Positions 26,648 through 42,371 of a DNA stretch of 64,000 nt are shown piece after piece. The stretch is from Hymenobacter edaphi (GTDB lineage Bacteria > Bacteroidota > Bacteroidia > Cytophagales > Hymenobacteraceae). Positions within the stretch are counted from its first letter, which is position 1; every line of letters starts with the position of its first letter. Below the pieces are notes generated by a model. It was not told where the DNA came from. It saw only the letters and a program-made list of their open reading frames with translations, and did not search any database. The stretch spans positions 434,001-498,000 of the forward strand of contig NZ_QHKM01000003.1 in the NCBI RefSeq assembly GCF_003258365.1, given 5' to 3'. Made by a program: the position numbers and the translations under genes.

Positions 26648-27139
26648 TCAGGCGCTTTGGTGCCGCTGCCCGTAGCGGTGCGACTCCCGGCGCCGGGCCA
26701 TGCGCAGGCTCCAGCGGAAGGCCAGCACCCCGGCGGTGAGCAGCGTGGTAAATTTCGTGATTTCCAGCACGATGTAGGTTACGTGCTGGGAATTGGGCGG
26801 CTGCGGCTGACCAGCCAGCAGGGCTGCGGCGCGCACGTCGAGGGCGGGCAGCAGCCAGAGCGTCTGGGCCAGCAGCACGAGCACGGCCACCAGCAGCACC
26901 TGCCAGATGCGCGCCGGCACGCCCAGCAACCCGGCGCAGAGCAGGGCGGCCACGCTCAGGGCCAGCTCCACCTTGTTCAGGGCGTGGAACACGATGCGCC
27001 CGATGCCCACGCCCAGCGGCACGGTGATGCGCGGGGCGGTGAACTTCAACGGGGCTTCGAGAAAGGAAATGCCGGCCATCAGGCCCGCCCAGAGGAACAG
27101 GACCAGCACCAGCAGCAGGGAAAGGGTGGAAAAGCGCAT
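26648..27139 (-). CDS. Small four-helix membrane protein
   Basis: 163 residues with four hydrophobic segments (about 5-25, 50-75, 77-98, 125-148). The N-terminal block FLWAGLMAGISFLEAPLKF resembles DUF4149/TMEM205-like proteins (weak). The start at 27139 is the ATG of the first helix. Function unknown; pairing with the truncated haemoglobin and divergence from the cbb3 copper ATPase suggest a role in low-oxygen or nitrosative conditions. Confidence 0.7.
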   Translation of the reverse strand: MRFSTLSLLLVLVLFLWAGLMAGISFLEAPLKFTAPRITVPLGVGIGRIVFHALNKVELALSVAALLCAGLLGVPARIWQVLLVAVLVLLAQTLWLLPALDVRAAALLAGQPQPPNSQHVTYIVLEITKFTTLLTAGVLAFRWSLRMARRRESHRYGQRHQSA

Positions 27140-27202: not shown

Positions 27203-27210
27203 CAAAGGTG
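27203..27210 (-). promoter_or_regulatory. -7-like box (CACCTTTG) for the haemoglobin operon
   Basis: One mismatch to TAnnTTTG on the minus strand, 63 bp before the ATG at 27139. The nearest FNR-like dyad is centred 34 bp upstream. Confidence 0.5.
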
Positions 27211-27234: not shown

Positions 27235-27246
27235 TGACGAGGATCA
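27235..27246. promoter_or_regulatory. FNR-like dyad TGACGAGGATCA
   Basis: First of two dyads between divergent operons. It is 34 bp from the -7-like box of the haemoglobin operon and 23 bp from the second dyad. Confidence 0.6.
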
Positions 27247-27257
27247 GCCCGGGCGGC

Positions 27258-27269
27258 TGACGTTCGTCA
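27258..27269. promoter_or_regulatory. FNR-like dyad TGACGTTCGTCA
   Basis: Near-perfect palindrome within GCTGACGTTCGTCAGC. Its centre is 33 bp from the GAACTTTG box at 27293-27300, the position of a class II activator. An identical 12-mer with the same geometry precedes ccoNO. Confidence 0.7.
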
Positions 27270-27292
27270 GCTTTTCGGCGCGGCCGGGCGGG

Positions 27293-27300
27293 GAACTTTG
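27293..27300 (+). promoter_or_regulatory. -7-like box (GAACTTTG) for the copper ATPase operon
   Basis: One mismatch to TAnnTTTG, 40 bp before the GTG start. A weak box fits an activator-dependent promoter. Confidence 0.5.
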
Positions 27301-27340
27301 CCGGACTACCAGCATCTGCCCTGGCAGTCAACTCCTTCGC

Positions 27341-29863
27341 GTGAACACCACCGCCGCACCCATCCGTACCGCCACCGGCTGCGCCCACTGCGGCGACGAC
27401 TGCCCCGACGAGCCCCTGCGGCTGCCGGCCCAGCCCGAGCTGGCGTTCTGCTGCGCGGGCTGCAAGGCCGTGTACGAGCTGCTCGACGCCAACAACCTCT
27501 GCCAGTACTACGCCCTCGGGGAGGAGCGCCCCGGCCAGAAAATCAAGCCCGTGGAGCTGCCCGGCCGCTTCGACTACCTCGACGCCGACTCGGTGCAGGC
27601 CCAGCTGCTGAGCTTCCGCTCCGCCGAGCTGGCCCGCCTCACCCTGCACCTGCCGCAGATGCACTGCGCCTCCTGCATCTACCTGCTGGAGCACCTTTAC
27701 CAGCTCGACGCGGGCGTGACGGAGGCGCGGGTGAACTTTCTGCGCAAGGAAATCAGCCTGAGCTACCGGCCCGCCGATACCTCGCTCAAGGCCGTGGTGA
27801 CGCTGCTGGCCAGCCTGGGCTACGAGCCGCAGATCAGCCTGGCCGAGCTGGGTGCTCAGCCCCACCACGGCAGCCGCCGCCTCTACTACCAGCTCGGGCT
27901 GGCGGGCTTCTGCTTCGGCAACGTGATGCTGCTGGCCTTCCCCGACTACCTCTCGTTCACCGACGAGCTGGCCCACGCGTTCGGCCGCTTTTTCGGCTAC
28001 CTGAGTTTGGTGCTGGCCCTGCCGGTGCTGCTCTACGCCGCCCAGGGCTTTTACCGCTCGGCCTGGGCCGGCCTGCGCCAGCGCTACATCAACCTCGATT
28101 TTCCCATCTGCCTCGGCCTGACTTCGCTCTTTGCCGTGAGCAGCTACGAGGTGCTCACCCAGCACGGCCCCGGCTACTTCGACTCGTTTACCGGGCTGGT
28201 GTTTTTCATGCTCATCGGCCAGTGGGTGCAGCAGCGCAGCTACGACGCGCTGCGCTTCGACCGCGACTTCACCTCCTACTTCCCGGTGGCCGTGACGCTG
28301 CTGACCGCGGAAGGCGAAAAGTCGGTGTCGGTGAAGGAGCTGCGGGTGGGCCAGCGCATCCGGGTGCGCAACCAGGAAGTCATTCCGGCCGACGCCATGC
28401 TCATGCGCGGCCGCGGGCAGATCGACTACGCCTTCGTGACCGGGGAATCGGTGCCGGTGGCCAAGGTGGCGGGCGAGGTGGTGTACGCCGGCGGCCGGCA
28501 GGTGGGGGAGGCCGTGGAGCTGGAAGTGGTGCGCGAGGTGTCGCAAGGCTACCTCACCCAGCTCTGGAACAACCCCGCCTTCCGGAAAGCCGACCAGCCG
28601 ACCCTGGAAACCTACGCCAACCGGGTGGGCCGCTACTTCGTGGCCGCCACCCTGCTGATTGCGGCCGGCGCCATCCTGTACTGGTACCCGCGGGATGAGC
28701 AGATGATGTGGCGGGCCTTTACGTCGGTGCTGGTCATTGCCTGTCCCTGCGCCCTGTCCCTGGCCACGCCCTTTGCCCTGGGCAGCGCCCTCACGGTGTT
28801 CGGCCGGCACCGCTTCTTCCTGAAAAACGCCGCCGTAGCCGAAACCCTGGGCCGCGCCACCACCATCGTGTTCGACAAAACCGGCACGCTTACCGACGTG
28901 CAGCGCTCGGCCGTGGAATACCGCGGCCCGGTGCTGAGCGCGCAGGAGCAGCAGGCCGTGGCGGCCGTAGCGGCCCAGAGCACGCACCCGCTCAGTCAGC
29001 GGCTGCTGCAGGAGCTGCCCGCCAGCGTGCTATCCGTCACTGATTTTGTGGAAGTGCCCGGCCAGGGTTTGCGCGGCGTGGTCGAGGGCATGATGGTGAA
29101 GGTCGGCTCGGCCGCTTTCGTGGGGGCGGGTGCAGTACCGACGGCTCCAGCCAATGCCGCCTCGCCAGCCCAGGGGTCAAACCTTGGGCAATCGATAGAG
29201 CAATCAGCTGGCGAACCGGAAATCAATGATCCTGCCGCCGATACCACCGACAATCTGCAGTCCCGGGTGTACGTGAGCCTCGCGGGCGACCTGCACGGCT
29301 GCTACCGGTTCCGCAACGTGTACCGCCGGGAGCTGGGCCCGGTGCTGGCCGACCTCGGCCGCCGCTACCGCCTGGCCGTACTCAGCGGCGACAACGACTC
29401 CGAGCAGGACCGCCTGCGCGAGCTGTTCGGGCCCGAGGCCGAGCTGCGCTTCCGCCAGACGCCCCAGCAGAAGCTCGACTACGTGGCCGCCCTCAAGGCC
29501 CGGGGCGAAACCGTGGTGATGGTGGGCGACGGGCTCAACGACGCGGGCGCCCTGCAGCAGGCCGACGCCGGCATTGCCCTCACCGACACGCTCACCAACT
29601 TCTCGCCCGCCTGCGACGCCATTCTCGACGCCGGCAGCTTCGGGCGGTTCGGCAGCTTCCTGCGCTTCACCCAGGATTGCCTGCAGGTGGTGCTGGCCAC
29701 CTTCGTGCTGTCGTTCATCTACAACGGCCTGGGCCTGGGCCTCGCGGTGCAGGGCCGGTTCACGCCCATCGTGTCGGCCATTCTGATGCCCATCAGCTCC
29801 CTGAGCGTGATGGTATTTGCCACCTTGCTGGTGCGGCTGGCCGCCCGCCGCCGCCGGCTCTAA
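27341..29863 (+). CDS. ccoI: Copper-translocating P-type ATPase for cbb3 oxidase assembly (CcoI/FixI type)
   Basis: 840 residues from the GTG at 27341. Order: N-terminal Cys-rich metal-binding domain (CAHCGDDCP...FCCAGCKAVYE), HMA-like domain with Cys109-x-x-Cys112, membrane helices, CPC motif (Cys468-Pro-Cys470), phosphorylation site Asp512 in DKTGTLTD, HP motif in STHPLSQ, and GDGLNDAGAL near the end. It exports copper to supply the oxidase. ccoS follows after 13 bp, which identifies the operon. A 38-bp palindromic repeat lies in frame in the nucleotide-binding domain (residues 607-620) within a Ala/Pro/Ser-rich linker of about 35 residues. Confidence 0.94.
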   Translation: MNTTAAPIRTATGCAHCGDDCPDEPLRLPAQPELAFCCAGCKAVYELLDANNLCQYYALGEERPGQKIKPVELPGRFDYLDADSVQAQLLSFRSAELARLTLHLPQMHCASCIYLLEHLYQLDAGVTEARVNFLRKEISLSYRPADTSLKAVVTLLASLGYEPQISLAELGAQPHHGSRRLYYQLGLAGFCFGNVMLLAFPDYLSFTDELAHAFGRFFGYLSLVLALPVLLYAAQGFYRSAWAGLRQRYINLDFPICLGLTSLFAVSSYEVLTQHGPGYFDSFTGLVFFMLIGQWVQQRSYDALRFDRDFTSYFPVAVTLLTAEGEKSVSVKELRVGQRIRVRNQEVIPADAMLMRGRGQIDYAFVTGESVPVAKVAGEVVYAGGRQVGEAVELEVVREVSQGYLTQLWNNPAFRKADQPTLETYANRVGRYFVAATLLIAAGAILYWYPRDEQMMWRAFTSVLVIACPCALSLATPFALGSALTVFGRHRFFLKNAAVAETLGRATTIVFDKTGTLTDVQRSAVEYRGPVLSAQEQQAVAAVAAQSTHPLSQRLLQELPASVLSVTDFVEVPGQGLRGVVEGMMVKVGSAAFVGAGAVPTAPANAASPAQGSNLGQSIEQSAGEPEINDPAADTTDNLQSRVYVSLAGDLHGCYRFRNVYRRELGPVLADLGRRYRLAVLSGDNDSEQDRLRELFGPEAELRFRQTPQQKLDYVAALKARGETVVMVGDGLNDAGALQQADAGIALTDTLTNFSPACDAILDAGSFGRFGSFLRFTQDCLQVVLATFVLSFIYNGLGLGLAVQGRFTPIVSAILMPISSLSVMVFATLLVRLAARRRRL
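29161..29198 (-). repeat. Palindromic repeat inside ccoI
   Basis: Matches the intergenic repeat at 53105-53142, read on the other strand, at 33 of 38 positions: core CCCAGGG..AAACC.TGGGC followed by AATCGATAG. The reading frame stays open through it. Confidence 0.8.
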
Positions 29864-29876
29864 CCTTCGCTGAATC

Positions 29877-30038
29877 ATGGAAATCATCTTCGCCCTCATC
29901 ACCATCTCGCTATGCGTGGCGGTACTTTTCCTGCTGGCCTTCGTGTGGGCCGTGCGCAGCAATCAGTACGACGACACCTACACGCCCGCCGTGCGGATGC
30001 TGTTCGACGACCCCCAGGAGGAAAAACCGGCACCGTAG
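29877..30038 (+). CDS. ccoS: cbb3 oxidase assembly protein CcoS
   Basis: 53 residues, easily missed because of its length. One N-terminal membrane helix (about 3-24) is followed by the family block WAVRSNQYDD and a short acidic tail (MLFDDPQEEKP). CcoS is needed for cofactor insertion into cbb3 oxidase. It starts 13 bp after ccoI, the standard ccoI-ccoS order. Confidence 0.93.
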   Translation: MEIIFALITISLCVAVLFLLAFVWAVRSNQYDDTYTPAVRMLFDDPQEEKPAP

Positions 30039-30048
30039 CGGGCGTCGT

Positions 30049-30082
30049 TATCGATAGCCCAGGGTTTAAACTCTGGGCTAGT
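30049..30082. repeat. Palindromic repeat (CCAGGGTTTAAAC type)
   Basis: TATCGATAGCCCAGGG core with TTTAAA centre, directly after ccoS. Same family as 29161-29198, 42491-42525 and 53105-53142. Confidence 0.8.
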
Positions 30083-30158
30083 CAGGACCCGGTGTTACCC
30101 TTTTGCCGGGCTGGTCGTACGCAAGAGGCAGCGGGGCCAATGCCCGCGCCCGACCTTT

Positions 30159-30593
30159 ATGCAACACCAGACCAAAACCACCACTCTGCAGGACGCCGCT
30201 CGCAATATCCTAGGCACTTTCATGCTCACGGCCGGCACCGGTCACCTCACCTTCGCCCGGCGCGAGTTCCAGGCCCAGGTACCCGATTTCGTGCCGCTCG
30301 ACAAGGATACCACCGTGCTGCTCTCGGGCGTGGCCGAAATCGGGATGGGGCTCGCGCTGCTGCTCTGGAAGCGGGAGCGGGCCCTGCTGGGCCTGGGACT
30401 GGGCGCGTTCTACGTGGCGGTATTCCCTGGCAATGTGCACCAGTACACTCACCACATTGACGCCTTTGGCCTTGATACCGACGAGAAGCGCCTGGCGCGG
30501 CTGTTCTTCCAACCGGTGCTGGTGGCCTGGGCCCTGTGGAGCACCGGCGCGCTGAAGGCGCTGTGGCAGAGCCGCCAGCAGAAGAAACATTAG
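30159..30593 (+). CDS. DoxX-family membrane protein
   Basis: 144 residues with four hydrophobic segments and a DoxX-like layout (FMLTAGTGHLTFARREF, then GVAEIGMGLALLLWKRERAL and FPGNVHQYTHH). DoxX relatives are linked to redox homeostasis in the membrane. It sits between ccoS and ccoNO in the same direction, so it may be coexpressed, but it is not a usual member of the cco cluster. Confidence 0.8.
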   Translation: MQHQTKTTTLQDAARNILGTFMLTAGTGHLTFARREFQAQVPDFVPLDKDTTVLLSGVAEIGMGLALLLWKRERALLGLGLGAFYVAVFPGNVHQYTHHIDAFGLDTDEKRLARLFFQPVLVAWALWSTGALKALWQSRQQKKH

Positions 30594-30785
30594 AACGTCA
30601 TCCTGAGGCGTAGCCGAAGGACCTTCCTCGCATCCCGCACCAACTGATAAGCGCAGCCACCAACGCCCTTTCGTCCGGGCATGGTGGCTGCGCTTCTGCA
30701 TTATCGAAAAAGCGTCGGCACTTCGTAGGCCGCGGCAGTGCGGGGTGGGAGGAAGGTCCTTCGCGTTGCTCAGGATGACGTTGTT
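30594..30785. repeat. CGTCAT-type long inverted repeat
   Basis: Begins AACGTCATCCTGAGGCG and AAGGACCTTCCTC; ends GAGGAAGGTCCTTCG and CTCAGGATGACGTT. An inner pair (AAGCGCAGCCACCA / TGGTGGCTGCGCTT) extends the stem. Same family as 36082-36239. Confidence 0.8.
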
Positions 30786-30822
30786 TTCCGACGCTAGCTA
30801 ACTGTTCCACCAGCCCGGCGCC

Positions 30823-30857
30823 TGACATCAATCAGCCCGTTGGCCTGACGTTCGTCA
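30823..30857. promoter_or_regulatory. Tandem FNR-like dyads before ccoNO
   Basis: TGACATCAATCA (30823-30834) and TGACGTTCGTCA (30846-30857), 23 bp between centres, exactly as at 27235-27269. The inner dyad is centred 33 bp upstream of the GAGTTTTG box. Confidence 0.7.
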
Positions 30858-30880
30858 TCTTTTGCCGCCGGCCCGATTCG

Positions 30881-30888
30881 GAGTTTTG
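30881..30888 (+). promoter_or_regulatory. -7-like box (GAGTTTTG) for ccoNO
   Basis: One mismatch to TAnnTTTG, 29 bp before the ATG of ccoNO; same GAnnTTTG form as the ccoI promoter. Confidence 0.55.
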
Positions 30889-30917: not shown

Positions 30918-33110
30918 ATGGCTGTGCTGGCTCCAGCGAAACTGCCGGGGGAGGAAAAACCTCTTGCCAAGGCCGTTCTCGCATCATTTTACGACAACAA
31001 AATCGTCCGGGACTTCGGCGTTGCTACCGTGTTCTGGGGCATTGCCGGCATGCTTATCGGCGTCATTGCCGCGTTTCAGCTGGCCCGGCCCGAGCTGAAC
31101 ATGGGCATGCCCTATACCACCTTCGGCCGCATCCGCCCGCTGCACACCAACGCCGTCATCTTCGCCTTCGTCGGCAACGGCATCTTCACCGGGGTGTACT
31201 ACTCGCTGCAGCGCCTGTGCAAGACGCGCATGTTCTCGGACGTGCTCAGCAAAATCCACTTCTGGGGCTGGCAGCTCATCATCGTGTCGGCCGTGGCCAC
31301 CCTGCCGCTGGGCTTCACTACCTCCAAGGAGTACGCCGAGCTGGAGTGGCCCATCGACATTGCCATTACGCTCGTCTGGGTGGTGTTCGGCTGGAACATG
31401 TTCGGCACCATTGCCCGCCGCAAGGAAAAGCACCTGTACGTGGGCATCTGGTTTTACATTGCCACCTTCCTGACGGTGGCTGTGCTGCACATCGTCAACT
31501 CGATGGCCATTCCGGTGAGTTTCCTGAAAAGCTACTCGCTCTACGCCGGGGTGCAGGACGCGCTGGTGCAGTGGTGGTACGGCCACAACGCGGTGGCCTT
31601 CTTCCTGACCACGCCCTACCTGGGGCTGATGTACTACTTCCTGCCCAAGGCGGCGGAGCGCCCGGTGTACTCGTACCGGCTGAGCATCATTCACTTCTGG
31701 TCCCTGATTTTCATCTACATCTGGGCCGGCCCGCACCACCTGCTCTACACCGCCCTGCCCGACTGGGCCCAGAGCCTGGGCGTGGTTTTCTCCATCATGC
31801 TCATCGCGCCCAGCTGGGGCGGCATGATCAACGGCCTGCTCACCCTGCGCGGCGCCTGGGACAAGGTGCGGCAGGAGCCCATCCTGAAGTTTATGGTGGT
31901 GGCCATTACGGCCTACGGCATGGCCACTTTCGAGGGCCCGATGCTGAGCCTGAAGAACGTCAACGCCATTGCGCACTTCACCGACTGGATTGTGGCCCAC
32001 GTGCACGTGGGGGCCCTGGGCTGGAACGGCTTTTTGACCTTCGCCGTGCTCTACTGGCTGTGGCCGCGCCTCTACCAGACCCCGATTCACTCGCGCAAGC
32101 TGCAGAACGTGCACTTCTGGCTGGGCACCCTGGGCATCCTGTTCTACGCCCTGCCCATGTACTGGGCCGGCTTTACGCAGGGCCTGATGTGGAAGCAGTT
32201 CAACGAGGAAGGCCTGCTGCAGTACGCCAACTTCCTGGAAACGGTGATGCAGATTGTGCCGATGTACTACCTGCGCGGCATCGGCGGGGTGCTCTACCTG
32301 AGCGGGGTGTTCCTGATGGTCTACAACCTCTGGCAGACCGCCAAAACCGGTACCCTGCTGGCCAACGAGAAATTCCACGCCCCCGTGGTTATCGACCACG
32401 CGCACAGCCACGCGGGCGGGCACTGGCACCGCTGGATTGAGCGCCGCCCCGTGCAGCTGAGCATCGGCGCCACCGTGGCCATCCTCATCGGTGGCGCGGT
32501 GGAAATGGTGCCGACCTTCATGATCAAGTCGAACGTGCCCACCATTGCCGCGGTGAAGCCCTATACCTCGCTGGAGCTGGAAGGCCGCGACCTGTACATC
32601 CGCGAGGGCTGCGTGAACTGCCACACCCAGATGGTGCGCCCCTTCCGCTCCGAAACCGAGCGCTACGGCGAGTACAGCAAAGCCGGCGAGTTTGTGTACG
32701 ACCGGCCCTTCCTCTGGGGCTCCAAGCGCACCGGGCCCGATTTGCACCGCGTGGGCCAGAAATACCCGCACTCCTGGCACTACAACCACATGCTGGACCC
32801 CACCAGCATGTCGCCCGGCTCCATCATGCCGCCCTATCCCTGGCTGCTGGAAAACGACCTCGACTACGCCGACACGCCCGCCAAAATCAGCGCCCTGCGC
32901 AAGCTCGGCACGCCCTACCCCGCGGGCTTCGAGCAAGTGGCCGTGCAGGAAGCCCGGAAGCAGGCCGCCGGCATCGTGGCCGACCTCGCCAAAGAGGATA
33001 TCCAGGTGAAATCGGACAAGGAAATCGTGGCCCTGATTGCCTACCTGCAGCGCCTCGGCACCGACATCAAAGTGAAGGACGAACAGGCCGCCGTGGCCGC
33101 CACTGAATAA
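30918..33110 (+). CDS. ccoNO: cbb3-type cytochrome c oxidase, fused subunits I and II (CcoN-CcoO)
   Basis: 730 residues. Residues 1 to about 500 are CcoN with 12 helices and the haem/CuB ligands: His in RPLHTNAV, WWYGHNAVAFF, AGPHHLLY and VAHVHVGALGWNG. After a His-rich linker (DHAHSHAGGHWH) and one more helix comes CcoO with the haem c site Cys565-Val-Asn-Cys568-His569 and an axial Met candidate in SPGSIMPPYPWL. The fusion is common in Bacteroidota. It reduces O2 at the cytoplasmic membrane with high affinity. Confidence 0.97.
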   Translation: MAVLAPAKLPGEEKPLAKAVLASFYDNKIVRDFGVATVFWGIAGMLIGVIAAFQLARPELNMGMPYTTFGRIRPLHTNAVIFAFVGNGIFTGVYYSLQRLCKTRMFSDVLSKIHFWGWQLIIVSAVATLPLGFTTSKEYAELEWPIDIAITLVWVVFGWNMFGTIARRKEKHLYVGIWFYIATFLTVAVLHIVNSMAIPVSFLKSYSLYAGVQDALVQWWYGHNAVAFFLTTPYLGLMYYFLPKAAERPVYSYRLSIIHFWSLIFIYIWAGPHHLLYTALPDWAQSLGVVFSIMLIAPSWGGMINGLLTLRGAWDKVRQEPILKFMVVAITAYGMATFEGPMLSLKNVNAIAHFTDWIVAHVHVGALGWNGFLTFAVLYWLWPRLYQTPIHSRKLQNVHFWLGTLGILFYALPMYWAGFTQGLMWKQFNEEGLLQYANFLETVMQIVPMYYLRGIGGVLYLSGVFLMVYNLWQTAKTGTLLANEKFHAPVVIDHAHSHAGGHWHRWIERRPVQLSIGATVAILIGGAVEMVPTFMIKSNVPTIAAVKPYTSLELEGRDLYIREGCVNCHTQMVRPFRSETERYGEYSKAGEFVYDRPFLWGSKRTGPDLHRVGQKYPHSWHYNHMLDPTSMSPGSIMPPYPWLLENDLDYADTPAKISALRKLGTPYPAGFEQVAVQEARKQAAGIVADLAKEDIQVKSDKEIVALIAYLQRLGTDIKVKDEQAAVAATE

Positions 33111-39233: not shown

Positions 39234-40260
<1,027 letters not shown>

Positions 40261-40283
<23 letters not shown>

Positions 40284-41877
40284 AGGGAATGGTGACGGTG
40301 ACGGTGGTGCCGCGGTTCAGTTCGCTGTGCAGGCTGATGCGCCCGCCCATCAGCTCCAGGTAGCGCCCCACGATGTAGAGCCCCAGCCCGGTGCCGGGAA
40401 TATTGGTGACGTTGCGGGCGCGGAAAAACCGCTCGAACAGGTGCTCCTGGTCTTCCTTGGAAATGCCCACGCCCTGGTCCTGCACCGTCAGCGTGAGCTG
40501 GCCCGCGGCGCAGGCGGCGCGCAGCGTCACCTCAGAACCTTCGGCCGAGTACTTGATGGCGTTGCTGAGCAGGTTGACGAGAATCTTGCGCAGCAGCGAG
40601 GGGTCGAGCACCACCGGGGCGGGGCAGCCCACGTGCTGGCTGATGCGCTGCCCGGCTTTGAGCAGGCCCTGCACGTCGGCCACCACCTCGCTGAGCAGCT
40701 CGGGCAGGGCCAGCTCCACCGGCCGGGCCTGCACCTTGCCTTCCTCGATGCGGCCGACGGAGAGGAACTCCTCCAGGATGTCGTTCAGGTGCTTTACCGA
40801 GCTGCGGATGCGCTGCAGGTGCTTCACGCGCTTGTCCTGCTGCTCGCTCTCGGGGTACTTCTCGATGAGCGTGGCCGAGTTCATCACGGCCGTGAGCGGG
40901 GTACGGAACTCGTGCGAGGCCATGCTCACGAAGCGCGACTTCAGCTCACCCAGCTCCTGCTCGGCGGCCAGGGCCTTGGCCAGCTCCTCGGTGCGCTGCT
41001 CCAGCTGCGCCAGGGTGCTGAGCAGGGCGTGGGTGCGGTCGGCCACCTTCTGCTCCAGCTCGGCGTTGAGCTTCTCCACGCGCTGGCGCTGGGCAATCAG
41101 CTCCCGCTCGGCTTCCTTCTTGTAGGTGATGTCGAGGATGTAGGACACCACGTACAGCTCCTCGTCGAGGTGGAAGTAGCTCAGGCTGACTTCCACCGGA
41201 AACACCGAGCCGTCCTGGCGCTGACCCAGCAGGTCGCCGCGGTGGGCGCCCATGGCCCGCACCGAGGGCGCGGCGTTGAACGACTCGCGCAGCTGCTCGT
41301 GGTGGCGGCCCACCGCCCGCGGCACCAGCACCTCGATGCGCTGGCCCAGCAGCTCGGCCGGCCGATAGCCGAACAGCTGCTCGGAAAGGTGGTTGGCCGA
41401 CACGATCTGCCCGTGCCGGTCGCACATGATGATGCCGATGGTGGCATTGGCCACCACCGCCTCGAAACGGCTCACGCTCTGGGCCAGCTCCCGCTCGGCC
41501 AGCAGCAGGCGGTCGGGCCCGCTCAGGCGCACCAGGTACAGGGTGCGGCCCTCATGCTCGAAGGGCGTCAGCTCAATGCGGGCGTGGGTGGCGTCGCCGC
41601 TGGCGCGGGTCACGTCGGCTTCCACCAGGGCGTGGCCGCTCTGCCGGGCCGAGTGCAGGGCGGCTTCCCAGCTGTGGCCGGCCGCGGGCTGCAGGGGCAG
41701 GGCGTCGTCGGCCACCTGGGCCTGCAGGAAAGCGGCCTCGGAGGGGTAGCCCAGCAGCTGCGCGCCCATGGGATTGACGCGGATAAAGCGGTGGGCGGCC
41801 TCGTCGTACACGCCGATGAATTCCTGGGCCTGCGTGAACAGCAGCGAAGCGAGGGCGTGGGCGTAAGTGGAAGGCAT
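40261..41877 (-). CDS. PAS-domain sensor histidine kinase, FixL-like
   Basis: 538 residues from the ATG at 41877. No membrane helices, so it is cytoplasmic. PAS1 spans about 8-120, PAS2 about 135-255. PAS2 contains VPRAVGRHHEQL and GAHRGDLLGQRQDGSVFPVE; His193 and Arg213 align with haem-ligand His200 and distal Arg220 of Bradyrhizobium FixL, with the same 20-residue spacing. A coiled coil (260-310) leads to the HisKA box with phospho-acceptor His322 (FVSMASHEFRTPLTA) and a HATPase domain (N box NAIKYS, G boxes DQGVGI and GTGLGLYI). Its 3' end overlaps the REC-Crp gene by 23 bp, so the two are translated as a pair. Haem binding is inference. Confidence 0.92.
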
Positions 41878-41968
41878 GAGTAGAGGGGCGCCGGGGCGGG
41901 GTGAAGCGGGCCCGACGGCCAAATTTGGGCATAATCGGGCGAGGATGATAGATGTTAAGCCCCGAAGC

Positions 41969-41980
41969 TGACGAATATCA
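41969..41980. promoter_or_regulatory. FNR-like dyad TGACGAATATCA
   Basis: Lies between the kinase gene and the divergent 42036 gene. Matches the TGAC-N4-RTCA form; no well-placed -7 box was found, so autoregulation is only possible. Confidence 0.4.
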
Positions 41981-42035
41981 TGGAATGCGGCGGCGCCAGG
42001 AGGCAATTTTACCCGGCAATTCAACTGAACTCCGT

Positions 42036-42371
42036 ATGAGCGCCTTGTCCTCCACTTCCTTGCGGCCCGCCGACGCCGCCGCCGTGCTGCTGGTGCTGCT
42101 GCCGGTGAGCCGCCCCGACGGAGCCGGGCCGCCCTTTTCATCCGCGGCCCTGGAGCGGCTGCAGCGCCGCCTGGGCCCGGCCATCCGGGTGCTGCGCATC
42201 GACGAGGCCAGCCACCCCACGGTGGTGCGCAGCTTCCACGCCCAGCAGCTGCCGGCCTGCGTGCTGGTGCGCCAGGGCGTGGAGCTGTGGCGCCAGCCCG
42301 GCCTGCCCGACGACGAAGCCGGGGCCACCGAGCTGCTGGGCCGCCTGGCCGCCCCGACCGGCGTGAGCTAG
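42036..42371 (+). CDS. Thioredoxin-fold-like small protein without CxxC
   Basis: 111 residues. Strand-helix pattern VLLVLLPVSR, then IRVLRIDEASHPTVVRSF, then LPACVLVRQGVELWRQPGL, which has the cis-proline context of thioredoxin folds. The active-site CxxC is missing; only one Cys is present. It may be a structural or regulatory relative. Start at 42036 is preferred over in-frame codons in the promoter region. Divergent from the FixL-like kinase. Confidence 0.6.
   Translation: MSALSSTSLRPADAAAVLLVLLPVSRPDGAGPPFSSAALERLQRRLGPAIRVLRIDEASHPTVVRSFHAQQLPACVLVRQGVELWRQPGLPDDEAGATELLGRLAAPTGVS

Follow-up and report, generated by a model that had tools for sequence, protein, structure and literature searches.

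The 64,000 nt of the Hymenobacter edaphi genome analyzed here (“the window”: contig NZ_QHKM01000003.1, positions 434,001 to 498,000) include ccoNO, a cbb3 oxidase gene, and a ccoI-like gene, each preceded by a tandem pair of TGAC-N4-RTCA dyads in fixed spacing to one another and to a box resembling the Bacteroidota -7 promoter element. About 9 kb from the ccoNO promoter is the gene for REC-Crp, a protein in which a two-component receiver (REC) is fused to a Crp-type DNA-binding domain, overlapping the gene for a FixL-like histidine kinase (HK). Our reading, to which we assign a probability of roughly 0.7, is that the FixL-type kinase acts on the fused FixJ/FixK-like REC-Crp, which binds the paired dyads and activates the cco genes. 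REC-Crp is the most likely, and best supported, predicted binder of the tandem dyads because all 111 ccoNO-bearing genomes examined in its family (Hymenobacteraceae) carry it, and because the base flanking the dyads tracks a residue of its recognition helix.

Paired dyads at the ccoI and ccoNO promoters

Upstream of the ccoI-like gene for a heavy-metal P-type ATPase (27341-29863, with a probable GTG start), the outer dyad TGACGAGGATCA is found at 27235-27246, the inner or class II dyad TGACGTTCGTCA at 27258-27269, and a -7-like box, GAACTTTG, at 27293-27300. Upstream of ccoNO (30918-33110, encoding fused cbb3 oxidase subunits I and II) the outer dyad TGACATCAATCA is at 30823-30834, the inner one, again TGACGTTCGTCA, at 30846-30857, and the box, GAGTTTTG, at 30881-30888; all of these features are on the plus strand. 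As a first-pass annotation of this DNA had proposed, the dyad centers are 23 bp apart in both places, and inner dyad and box are 33 bp apart center to center, each box beginning 23 nt past the dyad. The 28 of 33 identical bases it counted between the two promoters are those of 27243-27275; identity over the whole tandem is 27/35, or 28/37 when one base is added on each side. Its description of the flanks as unrelated is also borne out, with only 8/34 upstream and 12/40 downstream bases identical. Single dyads are frequent in the window, at 11 matches to 1.46 expected (palindromic sites being counted on both strands). Compared to the FNR/FixK box TTGAT-N4-ATCAA, the leading T of the half-sites is missing: the bases next to the four cco dyads of the window are C or A.

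Genome-wide motif searches of the 6.04 Mb genome were each paired with a reversed control. The exact 23-bp tandem occurs in two places, the ccoI and ccoNO promoters, and nowhere else (control, 0). A search for a dyad plus box suggested by the first-pass annotation, TGACNNNNRTCA-N{23,25}-ANNTTTG, gave seven matches, every one at a gap of 24 (control, 0); widened to N{18,30}-ANNTTTR it gave 11, with eight at gap 24, two at 25, and one at 29 (control, 2). The probability of 8/11 falling at any single gap among these 13 lengths is ~2e-6. Besides the cco genes, dyads with a box at the common gap are found at pta, a fatty acid desaturase, and a fatty acid hydroxylase, and a Usp gene has its box one base farther away. 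A TGAT version of the search yielded two matches (control, 1). As a regulon-defining pattern, CTGACNNNNRTCAG proved too loose, with 29 matches on both strands vs. eight in the reversed control.

Conservation of the layout in relatives

The same arrangement is widespread. In the best 80 of at least 594 ccoNO loci (titled records, mostly from Bacteroidota, many of them metagenome-assembled genomes, or MAGs), 350 bp upstream were scanned for TGAY-N4-RTCA pairs with at most one mismatch, at spacings of 13 to 60. Forty upstream regions have a pair at 22 bp and four at 23 bp, with no other spacing in more than two; shuffled sequences, approximate in some cases, gave ~0.1. In 30 of 43 paired regions an xAnnTTTR box begins exactly 23 nt past the inner dyad, and in 17 of the 43 the full TAnnTTTG is at this offset.

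Among 150 genomes of the family, perfect 22-bp tandems are found at 341 sites in 124 genomes (five control matches) and perfect 23-bp tandems at 62 sites in 37 (one control match). A capped draw of 60 from these 403 sites was inspected for boxes on both sides: 49 have one at offset 23 on either side and 55 at 23 or 24, with at most two at any other offset. Neighboring genes include ccoNO, ccoI, hemA, a radical-SAM hemN-like gene, norB, Usp, and a hemerythrin protein. The fixed distance of dyad to box, in H. edaphi and in its relatives, strongly supports the first-pass assignment to the class II position of Crp/FNR activators, and with it the identification of the tandem dyads as a putative Crp/FNR class II promoter architecture in which the box predicts the start site.

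Some variation in spacing was seen. It is 23 bp in Hymenobacter and some further family genomes and 22 bp in the rest, with the box distance unchanged. Two genomes have three or more dyads in a row, spaced by 22-23 bp (G091:C17:30667-30722 and G125:C10:8207-8285); the second has the repeated unit TGACTATAGTCA, in a genome without a REC-Crp match.

A receiver-Crp fusion as candidate binder

Three Crp/Fnr-type proteins of H. edaphi are above the PF13545 cut-off: the REC-Crp near the cco genes, a second REC-Crp with a kinase of its own, and a stand-alone FNR-like protein. The cco-adjacent REC-Crp (39234-40283, minus strand) consists of a receiver (residues 4-115, with D9, D52, T82, and K104 present by motif), a cNMP-type domain, and a Crp helix-turn-helix (HTH) with the recognition helix GTAPESLIRT. 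With its phosphoacceptor Asp and an overlapping kinase gene with HisKA and HATPase domains, it has the features of a two-component response regulator. It is not a FixJ, its HTH being of the Crp type, nor a FixK, a stand-alone protein without a receiver. By eye, GYMAL and DSAV presumably occupy the place of the CRP cAMP-pocket motifs GELGL and RSAW. Searched alone, the DNA-binding domain matched one PDB chain.

REC-Crp and ccoNO go together in the family. At cut-offs of E<=1e-100 for ccoNO and E<=1e-60 for REC-Crp, the 150 genomes include 111 with ccoNO and 126 with REC-Crp: both are found in 111, REC-Crp only in 15, and neither in 24, and there is no case of ccoNO without REC-Crp. With kinship uncorrected, Fisher's test gives p 6e-18 for the whole set and p 8e-9 within the largest genus (35/0/12/19).

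Flank base and recognition-helix residue 317

The REC-Crp recognition helix was aligned to that of FNR (GLTVETISRL) by way of the FNR-like protein's GTATETASRL; residue 317 of REC-Crp, an Ile, therefore occupies the position of an FNR Ser. In other REC-Crp proteins this residue is Ser, and its identity appears, from the base composition of predicted operators, to matter besides E314 and R318. Four dyad-flanking bases were scored in each of the 43 family genomes with a ccoNO promoter and REC-Crp. Taking the best-hit REC-Crp of each genome, which in several is located away from ccoNO, T flanks make up 16/140 for the Ile type and 12/32 for the Ser type (p 0.0009).

Three genomes (G021, G081, and G083) have T-flank promoters and an Ile-type best hit. 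They hold several REC-Crp copies, and a Ser-type copy near ccoNO was therefore predicted. The copy that shares a contig with ccoNO in G021 is indeed Ser-type, and G081 has two copies on its ccoNO contig, the nearer (~5 kb) Ser-type and the farther (~17 kb) Ile-type. The ccoNO of G083 is located at the end of its contig; the matching copy, which is on a different contig, is also Ser-type. After reassignment of these three, which is post hoc in form, T flanks are 7/128 for the Ile type (32 genomes) and 21/44 for the Ser type (11 genomes; p 1.6e-9).

Outside the family, Ser-type genomes have G flanks at the outer ccoNO dyad. A wider flank comparison was confined to loci with a pair at two or fewer mismatches (many Ser-type pairs have two) and counts some genomes twice; in it, the outer ccoNO dyad has G or T flanks in 27/44 Ser-type vs. 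23/122 Ile-type cases (p 6e-7) and the inner dyad in 17/44 vs. 15/122 (p 0.0006). At dyads upstream of the kinase gene, G/T flanks at the dyad nearer HK are found in 27/30 Ser-type vs. 12/52 Ile-type rows, many of the Ser rows belonging to one paralog group.

Partner kinase and proposed mechanism

The kinase (40261-41877, minus strand, with a probable ATG start at 41877) has an N-terminal PAS-like region followed by a FixL-like heme-PAS domain (PAS2, ~41092-41499); the open frame extends further, to 42141, but this additional 5′ part is probably spurious. At E<=1e-4 PAS2 matches 14 PDB entries: seven FixL, six DosP/Dos-type, and one multi-sensor kinase. The axial His of FixL aligns to His281, which is kept in 118 of 126 HK rows (genomes recur among them), so that as far as can be read from the sequence a FixL-type PAS and its axial histidine are both present. 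The ligand-side Arg is kept in 73/126, in a gapped part of the alignment.

Site geometry, conservation, co-occurrence, domain make-up, and the association of residue with flank base were observed directly; from these we infer start sites, binding, phosphorylation, oxygen sensing, and activation, as follows. At low oxygen the kinase heme would be ligand-free, and in this state the kinase would phosphorylate D52 of the receiver. Phosphorylated REC-Crp would dimerize or alter its shape and then bind the paired dyads, operators that would each accommodate a Crp/FNR-type dimer in class II promoters: an inner dimer at a fixed distance from the -7 box, contacting RNA polymerase, and a second alongside, 22-23 bp farther upstream. 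Bound REC-Crp may thus turn on ccoI, ccoNO, divergent genes for a membrane protein and a globin, and a small open reading frame (ORF) beside HK.

Third tandem and divergent genes

The two cco tandems of the first-pass annotation are both present; it overlooked a third in the window, at 41946-41980, which has the HK/REC-Crp operon on one side and a divergent 111-amino-acid ORF (42036-42371, plus strand) on the other. Relative to this ORF, the outer dyad, TGATAGATGTTA (41946-41957, one mismatch), and the inner dyad, TGACGAATATCA (41969-41980), are spaced by 23 bp, and a -7-like box, CAATTTTA (42004-42011), begins 23 nt past the inner one, all on the plus strand. The ORF has no Pfam match; one at the corresponding place in another family genome (L028) matches thioredoxin weakly, at a level under the Pfam cut-off. 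Since the box of the third tandem faces the divergent ORF and not the kinase, a reading of this tandem as a class II site for the kinase was dropped, and kinase autoregulation is possible, though unproven.

The ccoI tandem is likewise two-faced. Its outer dyad, 27235-27246, doubles as the inner dyad for divergent minus-strand genes, with a -7-like box, CACCTTTG (27203-27210), 24 nt past it on that strand; this offset-24 class II geometry fits a membrane protein without a Pfam match (26648-27139) and the next gene, a truncated globin (PF01152; 26214-26612). Two of the three window tandems therefore face divergent genes. One relative's locus (L047) has boxes at offset 23 on both sides of its tandem.

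In 40 HK/REC-Crp operon stretches from the family, a mismatch-free 22- or 23-bp pair is found upstream of HK in 23 and a one-mismatch pair in six more. The second REC-Crp pair of H. edaphi (on contig C40) has no convincing tandem: the lone candidate, at 22 bp with one mismatch, is ~0.56 kb upstream of the first Met of a 424-residue open frame preceding REC-Crp. In several family genomes a second, Ser-type HK/REC-Crp pair has its own tandem (L278-L284, L298). In L278-L284 A/C flanks surround one dyad of this tandem and mostly T/G flanks the other, as though it were a meeting point of two paralogs.

Observations that weigh against the proposal

A number of observations weigh against this reading. 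Some concern the promoters themselves. The Bacteroidota -7 element has the consensus TAnnTTTG, and the window boxes GAACTTTG, GAGTTTTG, and CAATTTTA lack its first T. Others concern the distribution of the layout. REC-Crp was found in 62 of 79 further ccoNO-bearing genomes, from outside the family sample (30 in the fetched locus, 32 by further genome search), with none at E<=1e-45 in 17, several of these being incomplete MAGs, and a perfect tandem before ccoNO is present in 18/62 with and 4/17 without it, that is, with no association (p 0.77); for pairs with at most one mismatch the counts are 38/62 and 4/17 (p 0.007). Perfect tandems thus occur in four genomes without REC-Crp, two of which (L078 and L105) have in their fetched region a stand-alone Crp/Fnr gene whose product has Ile at the position of residue 317, and for this reason the operator layout seems to be shared beyond REC-Crp. 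Within the family, 11 of the 24 genomes without ccoNO and REC-Crp still have a tandem, which argues that other Crp/Fnr proteins use the layout. The first-pass nomination of REC-Crp as best candidate binder is supported by genomic linkage, strict co-occurrence with ccoNO in the family, and the flank-residue association; in some relatives the layout probably serves stand-alone Crp/Fnr proteins as well.

Further points touch the residue-flank association. Ser and Ile types are separated by one branch in the 43-genome tree, and so represent one event within the family. In Ser-type genomes outside it the flank is mostly G, not T. In the wider comparison there is no significant difference at ccoI promoters, and in the HK rows none at the dyad farther from HK (outer relative to HK). 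The presence of both types on one contig in G081 was counted as weakening confidence. The expectation that Ser is invariably accompanied by a T/G flank was not borne out at sites beside the FNR-like gene, where by eye only 7/24 flanks are T or G. An Ile at the equivalent place in the helix is also found in the stand-alone Crp/Fnr proteins of L064, L065, L073, L078, L105, and L130, so that residue and flank alone do not set REC-Crp apart from them in those genomes; this too slightly lowered confidence.

As to the signal, the heme His is absent from 8 of the 126 HK rows. Two of these are family paralogs, and the other six belong to loci or genomes whose titles name Chitinophagaceae, Sediminibacterium, or uncultured Bacteroidetes; its absence from Chitinophagaceae-like kinases (rows L126, L128, L245, L262, L263, and L264) suggests another signal in these.

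Alternative explanations

The alternative that survives best adds a second binder, and is compatible with control by REC-Crp: REC-Crp and the FNR-like protein could conceivably share sites, for a two-step oxygen response. We regard this as possible, if tentative. Both recognition helices contain E and R; the class II sites of H. edaphi comprise C-flank and T-flank types, which favors sharing; and in Rhizobium leguminosarum the anaerobox is bound by both FixK and FnrN (PMC7888657). The difference in flank base suggests, however, that the REC-Crp and FNR-like sites are at least partly separate.

A model in which the stand-alone FNR-like protein, as a direct oxygen sensor, uses the dyads as its operators and REC-Crp serves other genes is unlikely. 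The FNR-like protein of H. edaphi (contig C21) does have N-terminal cysteines and matches FNR structures, and a perfect 22-bp tandem, TTGATGAGAATCAA/TTGACGGCGGTCAT, with a class II box, adjoins its gene (L312), before a gene that by eye is roadblock-like; in five family loci such a roadblock-like gene is likewise located close to FNR-like genes. Among the 80 ccoNO loci, seven have a stand-alone Crp/Fnr gene in the fetched region (those listed above with Ile, and L066), within ~0.7 kb of ccoI and adjoining it in L064, L065, L105, and L130, and the tandems in genomes without REC-Crp point the same way. Against this, in the co-occurrence count, which covered ccoNO and REC-Crp, no ccoNO lacking an accompanying REC-Crp turned up among the 150 family genomes. 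The FNR-like protein beside the roadblock-like gene, moreover, has Ser in all four of the 43 genomes where it was seen, three with Ile-type REC-Crp (G000, G091, and G113) and one with Ser-type (G036), although the cco flank base varies with the REC-Crp type; it therefore does not follow that base.

Less probable still is that the inner dyad alone is a Crp site, with the outer one acting via an overlapping TGATTGATGTCA-like element for a different protein. By eye, more than half of the 43 family rows retain ATCA as N4 of the outer dyad at ccoNO (TGAC-ATCA-ATCA), which a simple dyad would not require; the exact 22/23 spacing to the inner dyad and the different N4 of the ccoI outer dyad in the window argue against a separate element. 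That the dyads arose by chance, or are a repeat copied from one promoter to the other, as their identical inner dyads and 28/33 matching bases might suggest, can practically be dismissed, being contradicted by the same geometry with different sequences in many relatives, near-zero controls, and unrelated flanks.

Comparison with known systems

Control by REC-Crp at paired dyads would resemble FNR class II promoters in the TGAT-like core half-site, the E and R of the helix, and a dyad predicted to lie near -41; unlike them, it would commonly place two dimers side by side at 22-23 bp, would have a helix Ile in place of Ser, and would be controlled by a receiver domain rather than an Fe-S cluster.

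In rhizobia, FixL phosphorylates FixJ, fixK is induced by FixJ, and FixK activates fixNOQP (PMC9104804 and PMC7888657). The proposed H. edaphi system is similar to this FixL-FixJ-FixK2-fixNOQP cascade in its FixL-type heme-PAS kinase (by sequence), phosphorelay, and Crp/FNR-type activator, in having cbb3 oxidase and assembly genes as targets, and in a TGA-N6-TCA binding core. It differs in that receiver and Crp activator are fused, with no separate FixJ in the pair; in that kinase and activator share an operon; in the paired dyads 22-23 bp apart and the putative Bacteroidota -7 box; and in not requiring the first T of the TTGA of the FixK box or anaerobox. Since receiver and FixK-like activator are one protein, the rhizobial chain of FixL, FixJ, FixK, and fixNOQP would be shortened to FixL-like kinase, fused protein, and ccoNO. 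The hFixL-FxkR-FixK pathway of R. leguminosarum (PMC7888657) is likewise a variant route of a FixL signal to a FixK-type activator, but there FxkR induces fixK transcription, whereas the H. edaphi receiver is fused to the activator itself.

Implications

Oxygen control of cbb3 oxidases is well understood in proteobacteria. Judging by titles and the beginnings of abstracts, we found no paper on it in Bacteroidota, and none reporting REC-Crp or tandem dyads at Bacteroidota cco promoters; in PMC8510549, CRP/FNR homologs of Flavobacteriales and Saprospiraceae MAGs are treated as MalR-like. The parts are thus known; by the same titles and abstract beginnings, the fusion in cco control, the paired-dimer promoter layout, and the residue-flank rule did not appear among the papers searched.

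It seems slightly better than an even chance that the system is general: that widely in Bacteroidota a FixL-type heme kinase and a receiver-FixK-like fusion drive cbb3 oxidase through two dimers at a rigid 22/23-bp spacing, the three steps of the rhizobial relay being reduced to two proteins, and that the helix residue, Ile or Ser, sets the operator flank base. If so, this would be a natural fusion of two regulators that act in series elsewhere, and would provide a residue-base specificity rule that could be checked by single mutations. The regulons of paralogous REC-Crp copies within one genome would then be distinguishable by sequence, and low-oxygen genes across a large phylum would have a readable promoter code.

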